Shown here one piece after another: positions 5,878 to 9,276 of a stretch of DNA of 64,000 nucleotides. Position numbers and translations under genes: made by a program. Under the pieces are notes generated by a model. It was not told the DNA's origin, did no database searches, and worked only from the letters and a program-made list of their open reading frames with translations. The DNA is from Streptacidiphilus sp. ASG 303 (GTDB lineage: Bacteria; Actinomycetota; Actinomycetes; Streptomycetales; Streptomycetaceae), in contig NZ_JAJLRA010000001.1 in NCBI RefSeq assembly GCF_020991365.1, forward strand, positions 424,142 through 488,141, given 5' to 3'. Each line of letters opens with the position of its first letter. The first letter of the stretch is position 1.

Positions 5878-6315
5878 TCAGCGGCGCAGGGAGGGCTTGA
5901 GCTCCTTGAGCCGGCCGAGCAGGCCGTTGACGAACGCGGGCGACTCGTCGGTGGAGAACTCCTTGGCGATCTCCACCGCCTCGTCCAGGACGACCGCGTC
6001 CGGCACGTCGTCCTCCCAGATCAGCTCGTAGGCGCCGAGCCGGAGGATGTTGCGGTCCGCGATGGGCATGCGGTCCAGCGTCCAGCCCACGGCGTAGCCG
6101 GAGATGAGCTCGTCGATCCGGGCGGCGTGCTGCGCGTACCCCTCGACCAGCTGCATCGTGTACTCGCCCACCTGCGGGACGCCCTCGTCGGGCTTGGGCT
6201 CCCGGCCCCGGCGGATCCAGTCGGCGAGGACGCCCTGGGGGTCGACGCCGCGGTGGTCGGACTCGAAGAGGATCTGGAACGCGCGCTTGCGCGCCTTGCT
6301 GCGTGCTGCGGACAC
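5878..6315 (-). CDS. nusB: Transcription antitermination factor NusB
   Basis: NusB (145 aa) binds boxA RNA with NusE/S10 to form the antitermination complex on rRNA operons. The all-helical fold is recognisable from ARKRAFQILFESD at the N-terminus and IADRNILRLGAYELIW, DEAVEIAKEFSTDESPAFVNGLLG in the C-terminal half. The GTG at 6313-6315 is only two bases after the efp stop, so it is read from the efp message. Normal length. Confidence 0.97.
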   Translation of the reverse strand: MSAARSKARKRAFQILFESDHRGVDPQGVLADWIRRGREPKPDEGVPQVGEYTMQLVEGYAQHAARIDELISGYAVGWTLDRMPIADRNILRLGAYELIWEDDVPDAVVLDEAVEIAKEFSTDESPAFVNGLLGRLKELKPSLRR

Positions 6316-6317
6316 GG

Positions 6318-6884
6318 TTAGCTGTTCACCCGGCCGAGGTAGCTGCCGTCGCGGGTGTCGACCTTGACCTTCTCACCGGTGGTGATGAAGAGCGGCACGG
6401 CGATCTCGTAGCCGGTCTCCAGGCGGGCGGGCTTGGTGCCGCCGGTGGAGCGGTCGCCCTGGACGCCGGGCTCGGTGTACTCGATCACGAGCTCGACGGA
6501 GGCGGGCAGCTCGACGTAGAGCGCCTGGCCCTCGTAGATGGCCACGACGGCCTCGAAGCCCTCGAGGAGGTAGTTGGCGGCGTCGCCGACGACCTCGGGG
6601 CTGATCGGCATCTGCTCGAAGGTGTCCGTGTCCATGAACACGAAGTCCGAGCCGTCCTTGTAGGAGAACTGCATGCCGCGCTTGTCGACGGTGGCGGTCT
6701 CCACCTTGGTGCCGGCGTTGAAGGTCTTGTCGACGACCTTGCCGGAGAGCACGTGCTTGAGCTTGGTGCGGACGAAGGCGCCGCCCTTGCCGGGCTTGAC
6801 GTGCTGGAACTCGACGACGGACCAGAGCTGGCCGTTGTCGAGCTTGAGCACCATGCCGTTCTTGAGGTCGTTCGTGGTCGCCAC
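6318..6884 (-). CDS. efp: Translation elongation factor P
   Basis: EF-P (188 aa) relieves ribosome stalling at polyproline stretches. Three beta-barrel domains: N-terminal KOW-like (1-65), OB domain II (66-128) and OB domain III (129-188, ending [18 protein letters not shown]). The tip loop that reaches the peptidyl-transferase centre is KPGKGGAFV with Lys33 at the apex. Many actinobacteria instead have an unmodified PGKGP loop; here the residue after KG is Gly, not Pro. No EF-P modification gene is in the window. GTG start at 6882-6884 with AGGAG ten bases upstream; nusB follows after two bases. Confidence 0.97.
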
Positions 6885-7016: not shown

Positions 7017-8123
7017 TCACAGGGCGAGGAGCTCCTTGGTGGTGATGGTGAGCAGCTCGGGACCGCCCTCTCCGAGGGGGCGGACGACGAGCGTGTCCTC
7101 GATCCGGACGCCGCCCCGGCCCGGGAGGTGGACCCCGGGGCCGACGGTGACCGGCACACGAGCATCCAGTTTACCCATGCCGCCGGGACCGAGTCGCGGC
7201 TCCTCCGCGATCTCCAGTCCCACGCCGTGTCCGACGGCCCGGTACGGCTCCTCGGCGTGGCCCGCCGCCTGCAGCACCTCGCGCACCACGCGGTCCGCGT
7301 CGTGGCAGGGCGTGCCGGGCAGCAGCGCCTCCCGGCCGGCCCGCTGGGCGGCGAAGACGACCGCGTGCAGGTCGATCTGCCACTGGGCCGGCGCGGTGCC
7401 GATGACGAAGGTCCGCACCGCCGAGGCGCCGTAGCCGCGGTAGCGGGCGCCGAGCGCCACGGTGAGGAAGTCGCCCTCCTCCACCCGGCGGTCGGTGGGC
7501 GCGTGCCCCGCCAGTCCGGCGTGGGGGCCGGTGGCGATGGAGACCGGGAACGCCGCCCGGTCGGCGCCGTGGTCGACCATGCGGCGCTCCAGCTCCATGG
7601 CCAGGTGCCGCTCGGTGCGGCCGACGAGGATCGACTCCAGCAGTTCGCCGAGGGCCTGGTCGGCGATCTCGGCGGCGATCCGCAGCGCGGCGATCTCCTC
7701 CTCGTCCTTGACCAGGCGCAGCTGCTCCACCGAACGCCCCAGGTCGACGGGGCGGCCCGGGGCGGCGGCCCCGGCGACCGCGCGGTGGCGGACGACCGTC
7801 AGGTCGTGCTCCTCGACCGCGAGGACGGCGGCCCGGTGGCGGGCGGCCTCGGCGGCGGCGGCCACGGCCGGGTCCGCGCCCGCCGGGACCGTGAGCCGCT
7901 GGACCTCGTCGGACTGCGGCGCGGGCCCGTCGGCGGCGTGCGGCGCGTCCTCCGGTACGGCGAGCACCGCCCGGTCCCGGACCAGCAGCAGCGCGGCGCA
8001 CCCGGGTACGGCGCCCGCCAGGTACCGCACGTTCGCCGGGCGGGTCACCAGGACGGCGTCGGCGGCGAGGGCCCCGCACCGCTCCCTGAGGCGCTCGCGT
8101 CGTGCTGCGTGCACATCGGCCAT
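7017..8123 (-). CDS. M24-family aminopeptidase P-like protein, metal ligands altered
   Basis: A 368-residue protein with the two-part aminopeptidase P/prolidase layout: an N-terminal creatinase-like domain (1-115) and a C-terminal pita-bread domain. M24 peptidases use Asp, Asp, His, Glu, Glu for two metal ions. Here the His (AVGHGVGLEIAEEP) and both Glu (IAEEP, GVRIEDTLVV) are present. The two Asp are not: the first motif reads VALGARYRGYG and the second GYGASAVRT where active enzymes have DxG and GYxSDxTR. It may therefore be a non-peptidase member, like metal-free creatinase, rather than a working Xaa-Pro aminopeptidase. The ATG at 8121-8123 (MADVHAARRE) is preferred over an upstream GTG at 8168. 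Lies upstream of efp in the same direction. Confidence 0.85.
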   Translation of the reverse strand: MADVHAARRERLRERCGALAADAVLVTRPANVRYLAGAVPGCAALLLVRDRAVLAVPEDAPHAADGPAPQSDEVQRLTVPAGADPAVAAAAEAARHRAAVLAVEEHDLTVVRHRAVAGAAAPGRPVDLGRSVEQLRLVKDEEEIAALRIAAEIADQALGELLESILVGRTERHLAMELERRMVDHGADRAAFPVSIATGPHAGLAGHAPTDRRVEEGDFLTVALGARYRGYGASAVRTFVIGTAPAQWQIDLHAVVFAAQRAGREALLPGTPCHDADRVVREVLQAAGHAEEPYRAVGHGVGLEIAEEPRLGPGGMGKLDARVPVTVGPGVHLPGRGGVRIEDTLVVRPLGEGGPELLTITTKELLAL

Positions 8124-8190: not shown

Positions 8191-9129
8191 CTAGCGGACC
8201 GGGTGGCCGGCCAGGCGGGCGGCGACGACGCGGTCGAGCTCGGCGGCGGTGGCGGCCACGTCGAGGCGGCTGTTGTCGATGATGGGGAGCCCGGAGTTGT
8301 ACCAGCCGGCCATCCGGCCGTGGATGCGGGCGACCTCCTCGTCGCTGAGCCTGCGGGTGCCGCTGCGCCGGGCGTTGCGGGCCAGCACCGACTCCAGGCC
8401 CGGCAGGAGCACCACCGGGACCATACCGGGGCCGATGTGGCGCTTCCAGCCGCCGAGGCCGATGGCCGGGCGGTCGGGGAAGACGGCGTCGTCGATGATG
8501 CAGGAGATGCCGTTGGCGAGGTAGTTGCGGCAGGCGAAGCCGCAGGTGCGGCGGGCGAGGCGGTACTGCGCCTCGGAGTGCTCGTTCCAGCCGGACTGGG
8601 GGTTGGCGAAGCCGGACCGCACCCACTCGCGGACGTCGTCCAGGCTGATGTGGGCGGTGGGGACGGTGCGCAGGCCGGCCCAGTGGCGGGCGACGGTGGT
8701 CTTGCCGGCGCCGGCCGGTCCGATCAGCAGCACGGCGACCGGTCCGGCGGGGGCCTGCGGGTGCGGGCCCGGCGCGGGGGCCGGGAGCGCGGCGGGGACG
8801 CCCGGCGGCAGGGGGAAGTGCCCGGTGGCCCCGGCGGGGGCGTGCGGGGGCGCGGGCGGCTGGGCCGGGGACGGCCGGCCGGCCGGGAGGTGGGGCTGCG
8901 CGGGCCGGGGGTGGACGCCCTGGGGGTGGGGGTGCCCCGGGTGGGGGTGCGGGGGCTGGGGGTGCAGGGGCTGGGGGTGCGGCGCGTGCGGGGGTCGGCC
9001 GGGCGGGGACGGGACGGGGTGCCCGCCGCCCGGCGCGCCGGGCGGGAAGGCCGGCACGCCCGGCTGCCCCGCGCCGTCCGGGCCCGGCGGGGGGGGGGCC
9101 TGCGGCGCTCCCCTGGCATGCTGCGTCAC
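8191..9129 (-). CDS. P-loop ATP-binding protein with Pro/His-rich N-terminus
   Basis: A 312-residue protein. Residues 1-130 are low-complexity Pro/Gly/His/Ala (repeats such as HPQPLHPQPPHPHPGHPHPQ), probably disordered. From about residue 131 a zeta-toxin/kinase-like NTPase domain begins: Walker A GPAGAGKTT (137-145), ISLDDVREWV, and later a conserved SCIIDDAVFPDRP and ARNARRSGTRRLSDEEV. It probably phosphorylates a small molecule or acts as an ATP-dependent switch; the substrate is unknown. The GTG at 9129 is chosen because GGAGG sits five bases upstream; a GTG at 9135 would lie inside that ribosome site. In-line with pepP-like and efp but separated by 67 bases. Confidence 0.8.
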   Translation of the reverse strand: MTQHARGAPQAPPPPGPDGAGQPGVPAFPPGAPGGGHPVPSPPGRPPHAPHPQPLHPQPPHPHPGHPHPQGVHPRPAQPHLPAGRPSPAQPPAPPHAPAGATGHFPLPPGVPAALPAPAPGPHPQAPAGPVAVLLIGPAGAGKTTVARHWAGLRTVPTAHISLDDVREWVRSGFANPQSGWNEHSEAQYRLARRTCGFACRNYLANGISCIIDDAVFPDRPAIGLGGWKRHIGPGMVPVVLLPGLESVLARNARRSGTRRLSDEEVARIHGRMAGWYNSGLPIIDNSRLDVAATAAELDRVVAARLAGHPVR

Positions 9130-9276
9130 GTGCACCTCCGGCGGGGACGATACACGGCGGCCCGGCGGCGGGCACAGTCCGCCGCCGGGCCGCCGTCCGG
9201 CTCCTGACGCGGGATCGGCGGGCGCGGCCTCCCGGCCGCCGGCCTCCCCGCGGCCCGGCAGCCGCCCGGCCGCCGC

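Follow-up and report, generated by a model that had tools for sequence, protein, structure and literature searches.

A PepQ-derived protein beside efp in Streptomycetaceae has lost its metallopeptidase site and is probably retained for binding

The window, by which we mean the whole 64,000-nucleotide stretch of Streptacidiphilus DNA that was analysed, carries beside efp a gene whose product is a dead version of a known type of enzyme, a form with a single origin that is retained almost universally at this place. Our favoured explanation, which we consider reasonably probable, is that of a PepQ-derived pseudo-peptidase that arose once in the ancestor of the crown Streptomycetaceae and has been retained for binding. 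The gene and its two domains are the following:

7017..8123, minus strand: pseudo-PepQ gene (ATG at 8123, stop at 7017), encoding a 368-aa M24-family protein
7710..8102, minus strand: Creatinase_N domain, residues 8-138 (Pfam, E 5.5e-12)
7080..7688, minus strand: Peptidase_M24 domain, residues 146-348, catalytically degenerate (Pfam, E 3.9e-47)

The M24 fold that the initial annotation had assigned to this product is borne out by the Peptidase_M24 match (E 3.9e-47) and by alignment to prolidase. The closest solved relative is the Pyrococcus furiosus prolidase 1pv9 (phmmer, E 1.5e-46), and the solved relatives that match best are all PepQ-type prolidases, creatinase 1chm being far weaker (E 2.6e-10). 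An AlphaFold model, built from 47 close relatives and used at the level of the fold only (pLDDT is below 50 past residue 291, the last fifth), matches the Bacillus PepQ 3q6d along the greater part of the chain at Z 21.0 (rmsd 4.2 over 299) and, with its N-domain, that of the Mycobacterium tuberculosis PepQ 5e2c at Z 20.1 (rmsd 1.8 over 125). The creatinases 1kp0 and 1chm match at Z 18.6 and 18.5, and Foldseek, among the families listed, places the model in the same PepQ-type one. The architecture is that of the M24B peptidases: Peptidase_M24 and Creatinase_N domains in a pita-bread fold, as in the Pyrococcus prolidase and the Bacillus and Deinococcus PepQ (1pv9, 3q6d, 5cdl), whose dinuclear metal site, however, the window protein does not preserve. 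PADLOC found nothing that matches the protein, and it falls below the cut-off of the Ebp1/PA2G4 family model TIGR00495 (E 0.0035; 16.1 bits vs 430.05). Our literature search, with subscription journals and MEROPS outside its scope, found no published account of the pseudo-peptidase.

The active site was read from the phmmer alignment to 1pv9 and from an alignment of 194 orthologues. The metal ligands of the prolidase family we take to be D209, D220, H284, E313 and E327 (numbering of the Pyrococcus enzyme). By the ortholog alignment, these and two active-site His positions correspond to:

7506..7508, minus strand: G206, at the H192 position
7455..7457, minus strand: A223, at the position of metal ligand D209, in the context VALG
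7422..7424, minus strand: S234, at the position of metal ligand D220, in the context GYGASAVRT
7227..7229, minus strand: H299, metal ligand H284, retained
7206..7208, minus strand: A306, at the position of active-site H291
7140..7142, minus strand: G328, at the position of metal ligand E313, in TVGPG where T-I/V-EPG is expected
7098..7100, minus strand: E342, metal ligand E327, retained

The five-ligand set Asp, Asp, His, Glu, Glu of the M24B peptidases has thus become A, S, H, G, E, with three of the five ligands gone and only H299 and E342 surviving. Both active-site histidines, H192 and H291, are replaced (G206, A306), and the H280 position is taken by R295. With three ligands and further active-site His missing, the usual dinuclear metallopeptidase centre is absent. 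The initial annotation had both metal-binding Asp missing, which is correct (A223, S234), and the His and Glu ligands remaining, which is half right, as E313 has given way to G328; its proposal of a pseudo-peptidase is well supported. An artefact of alignment or sequencing, the chance of which we put at practically nil, is refuted: all 194 alignment rows are free of gaps and insertions for 4 columns around each of the seven active-site positions, and the pattern recurs across genomes. The seven-letter site string of the window protein, GASHAGE, is found again in an 87% identical protein (L087) from a second genome of the genus, which rules out sequencing error. Whether a canonical pepP exists elsewhere in the genome had also been asked. 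The genome encodes five M24 proteins: two (L002, L005) pass the cut-off of the type I methionyl aminopeptidase family, and two PepQ/PepP-type proteins (L001, L003) carry the full HDDHHEE, so that the lost activity may be covered.

To what extent the loss is shared was read from 218 orthologous loci, which gave 194 distinct proteins. These were not drawn at random (the 80 named records, every one of them changed, are those that match the window best, and the class-level rows come from strongly matching genomes); among them, 52 of the 194 distinct efp-linked orthologues keep the full HDDHHEE and 142 are changed. D209 is missing from all 142 changed proteins; of the five ligands, two are left in 128 of these proteins, one in 13 and three in a single protein. 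Among the 17 sampled genus codes of the Streptomycetaceae, the changed form occurs in 15 and the canonical form in two basal ones (g2, with 3 loci, and g5, with 4 loci). The canonical form is also found in two other families of the order (f2 and f3) and in every sampled family of the class. Canonical actinobacterial efp-linked PepQ resembles the window protein in lying upstream of efp, in its two domains and in about 40-57% identity (canonical rows), and differs in keeping HDDHHEE (52 distinct proteins sampled), where all but H284 and E327 are lost from the window protein. A tree of 114 representatives places the changed rows together on one side of one branch, whose SH-aLRT is 100, or 99 once the eight site columns are removed; these were quick trees, with several long end branches. 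The dead clade adjoins the canonical basal Streptomycetaceae inside the PepQ tree of the class. A record named Saccharothrix sp. ST-888 (L007) groups with Kitasatospora in this tree and is perhaps a misnamed strain.

Retention is nearly complete: 293 of 297 Streptomycetaceae genomes have a match at E <= 1e-100. Two of the genomes without such a match, G002 and G478, lack one to efp as well, and the kinase match in G478 stops at a contig end, which points to assembly gaps. In G331 the pseudo-pepQ gene is split by frameshifts, and G016 has a divergent PepQ copy (E 1.8e-69) adjoining efp. Elsewhere in the order, four genomes of family f3 (G076, G080, G081, G083) have only distant PepQ matches, the best at E 7e-35 to 3e-38, and may have lost the efp-linked PepQ.

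In the window the gene stands in the run aroQ-kinase-pepQ-efp-nusB, of which the following members are of immediate interest:

8191..9135, minus strand: gene for a proline-rich tail plus P-loop kinase domain (AAA_33, E 1.4e-8), directly upstream of pseudo-PepQ
6318..6884, minus strand: efp (elongation factor P), 132 nt downstream of the pseudo-PepQ stop
5878..6315, minus strand: nusB, next in the run after efp

The adjacency to efp, to which the initial annotation drew attention, is real, efp lying downstream on the same strand in all 194 distinct orthologues, canonical and changed alike. The distance is at most 136 nt in 192 of them, and 603 and 762 nt in two canonical ones (L177 and L231). 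As catalytically equipped, canonical orthologues share this adjacency, it is no special mark of the dead form; the link evidently predates the loss of catalysis. EF-P was also considered as a co-evolving partner, and this was rejected: no EF-P column is fixed (>=90%) in the dead clade yet absent from six basal canonical genomes, so that EF-P is not marked as such a partner, and the partial rate covariation of PepQ and EF-P is slightly negative (-0.06 and -0.09). The EF-P tip reads VKPGKGPAFV in 62 of 68 dead-clade representatives and in 17 of 46 canonical ones; the tip of the EF-P encoded in the window (6318-6884, minus strand) differs.

Substitution rates indicate that purifying selection acts on the dead protein, more strongly in what was the catalytic domain than in the N-terminal one. 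By the simple NG86 method, the median dN/dS of changed pairs is 0.22 for the whole protein, 0.136 for the M24 part and 0.33 for the N part (1455 pairs, 80-98.5% identical and not independent); for the few canonical pairs (n=19) the values are 0.16, 0.092 and 0.24. Between the window protein and L087, dN is 0.040 and dS 0.374 in the M24 part, against 0.148 and 0.311 in the N part. Canonical orthologues are more constrained than dead ones, and part of the change is therefore plain relaxation. At 34 positions conservation has been released (at least 95% in canonical, below 90% in changed representatives): eight of these belong to the active site (192, 209, 220, 280, 284, 291, 313, 327), several others are close neighbours of these, and the N-terminal domain accounts for 14.

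Within the old catalytic domain, one stretch has hardly changed across the dead clade:

7563..7646, minus strand: hairpin, residues 160-187, comprising the end of helix 141-162, a turn, and helix 171-184

Residues around 152-186 are near-invariant across 68 changed representatives. When compared with 13 canonical relatives of equal diversity (mean identity 0.69 in both sets), gained conservation peaks at 149-176, with 1 of 5000 permutations as high; when compared with 46 canonical representatives, it peaks at 158-185, with none of 5000 as high. Over residues 160-187, the 141 dead-clade rows have an identity of 0.94 to the window, the 7 basal canonical Streptomycetaceae one of 0.84, the 4 canonical rows from families f2 and f3 one of 0.82, and the 35 rows from other families one of 0.49; the rest of the C-terminal part gives 0.73, 0.64, 0.60 and 0.52 for the same groups. 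The hairpin motif, ESILVGRTERHxAxELERRMxDHGA, is already found in the basal canonical Streptomycetaceae. We accordingly rejected the idea of a surface born with the catalytic loss: at 84% identity in these relatives, the constraint is older. As we infer it, the simplest order of events has the hairpin constrained first, while the enzyme was active, and catalysis lost afterwards.

The kinase encoded directly upstream also matches Zeta_toxin at E 3.9e-4, under that model's cut-off, and PADLOC yielded nothing better than E 0.036 for it. Its structural model matches shikimate, APS and gluconate kinases, all at Z about 14-15, so that no one substrate can be named. The tail is rich in proline, with a median of 27% in up to 120 residues before Walker A vs 6% after; PP occurs in 133 and PPP in 94 of 135 kinase loci (repeats included). 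Of the 142 distinct changed loci, 88 have the kinase gene next to pseudo-pepQ and 16 have it farther upstream within the stretch covered, while 34 yielded none and 4 were untestable; of the 52 canonical loci, 50 yielded none and 2 were untestable. When 120 whole genomes were searched with an in-frame query, clade membership being assigned by genus code, matches at orthologue level (E <= 1e-72) came from 65 of the 66 dead-clade genomes, G002 (gap) being the exception, and from none of 54 non-clade genomes, 7 basal canonical Streptomycetaceae included (best match E 1.3e-8). In 12 Kitasatospora-type genomes (g14) the kinase gene lies about 3-16 kb upstream on the same strand (10 genomes) or on another contig (2 genomes), which explains most of the 34 loci where it was not found. 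At one Kitasatospora locus (L010, 1120-3933) other genes stand between the kinase and the dead pepQ gene: visual inspection of their translated starts suggests a Fpg/Nei-like glycosylase and one unnamed protein.

An out-of-frame kinase query matched 288 of the 297 family genomes, and the nine without a match are the seven canonical ones, G002 and G523. The last of these has the dead protein and lacks the kinase with the in-frame query too; its locus (L268) is rearranged, with dead pepQ-efp-nusB-bldD present and no kinase, aroQ or aroB in the 6 kb upstream. The rates of kinase and PepQ covary with a partial r of 0.56 when the slowly evolving efp and nusB are controlled for (90 rows; 0 of 999 permutations as high); with aroB added as a control the value is 0.36, vs 0.55 for aroB itself (52 rows). 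Kinase gain and catalytic loss map to one and the same stem branch, which amounts to one coincidence, not many. As a proven partner the kinase was rejected on this single coincidence, on its absence from G523, on a covariation below that of aroB, and on the hairpin being older than the kinase; we regard it as a co-gained neighbour and no more than a candidate partner.

Other accounts of the changed site have to be weighed against retention for binding. The site frequent in Streptomyces, C-E-H-E-D (D209C, D220E, H284, E313, E327D), may still bind a metal, and the protein might be a re-tooled metalloenzyme that holds one metal and carries out another reaction, the window lineage being further decayed. 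Such an enzyme agrees with the presence of Asp, Glu, His or Cys at all five ligand positions in 54 of the 142 changed proteins, with Cys at 209 in 56, and with the joint occurrence of D220E and E327D in 77 (E220 alone in 1, D327 alone in 9). This swap, however, may be one inherited event rather than repeated selection. Moreover, potential ligands number just two in 44 changed proteins, that of the window included, and one in 7, and the gene is kept there too; Arg stands at 209 in 17 of the 142, while H291 is kept in 3 and H192 in 6. On balance, we hold a re-tooled metalloenzyme to be unlikely. A creatinase-like, metal-free hydrolase of a small substrate seems to us very improbable. Creatinase does without the metal pair and has catalytic residues of its own, and its fold is shared by the window protein (1kp0 at Z 18.6 and 1chm at Z 18.5 against the model). 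The nearest sequences, however, are PepQ (1pv9, 1.5e-46) and not creatinase (1chm, 2.6e-10), the window protein has Gly at the E313 and H192 positions, and the pocket residues are not conserved in the dead clade: they differ between sister lineages, with C, V, A, S, R, G, T, N or E at 209 and D, R, G, E, A, H or V at 291. Positions that vary so freely do not agree with one shared replacement chemistry, and the earlier suggestion of another chemistry, like that of creatinase, finds weak support at best.

The product might also be useless and in slow decay, its frame being kept for the expression of efp in an operon context. The fast N-terminal domain (dN/dS 0.33), a dN/dS above that of the canonical orthologues, and the presence of efp downstream at every sampled locus all agree with this. 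An intact frame across 15 genus codes, a dN/dS of 0.136 in the M24 part, and a near-invariant hairpin and C-terminus, unexpected for a useless product, speak against it, and we rate decay as rather unlikely.

Under the explanation that we prefer, a pseudo-peptidase retained for binding, the efp-linked actinobacterial PepQ would have turned into a pseudo-peptidase in a single event in the ancestor of crown Streptomycetaceae. Its active-site positions have become variable, while the hairpin of the pita-bread fold is nearly invariant and would serve as a surface for binding another macromolecule. The binding role probably came first, in a still active enzyme, as the motif in canonical basal relatives suggests, and the loss of catalysis next. 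EF-P or the ribosome would be candidate partners in view of the old linkage of the genes, and so would the P-loop kinase, whose gain maps to the same stem. A further idea, which we consider quite unlikely, is that dead PepQ and kinase form a two-part regulatory device tied to EF-P that senses polyproline translation in streptomycetes. In such a device the cradle of the former Xaa-Pro peptidase would bind, and not cut, a proline-rich peptide, for example the tail of the kinase, and translation of that tail may itself depend on EF-P.

M24-like proteins that have given up catalysis are known from eukaryotes. The N-terminal domain of Spt16 has an aminopeptidase-P-like fold and no peptidase activity; unlike the window protein it is part of a eukaryotic histone chaperone, with no bacterial efp linkage. 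Ebp1/PA2G4 is described in PMC7005732 as MetAP-like, without catalytic activity, and sitting at the ribosomal tunnel exit. It would share with dead PepQ an M24 fold without catalysis that is kept for translation-linked binding, a role only proposed for PepQ; it differs in being human and MetAP-2-like and in docking via an insert domain (PMC7005732). By analogy, the nearest known way of working would be that of Ebp1, yet the window protein belongs with PepQ. In M. tuberculosis, pepQ (Rv2535c) presumably lies in the neighbourhood of efp. PMC10300004 reports a drug link for Rv2535c and describes the function of mycobacterial pepQ as still unknown.

Sequence searches thus file a streptomycete protein encoded beside efp under the Xaa-Pro peptidases, yet it no longer has the equipment of one. 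Dead PepQ has a single origin and surviving canonical cousins within the same family. If the binding reading is true, it would be a bacterial, PepQ-derived counterpart of the Ebp1-type pseudo-peptidases, with a defined surface to test. A non-catalytic role of PepQ would then predate the catalytic loss seen in Streptomycetaceae, and the search for the function of efp-linked actinobacterial PepQ, mycobacterial pepQ included, should allow for such a role.
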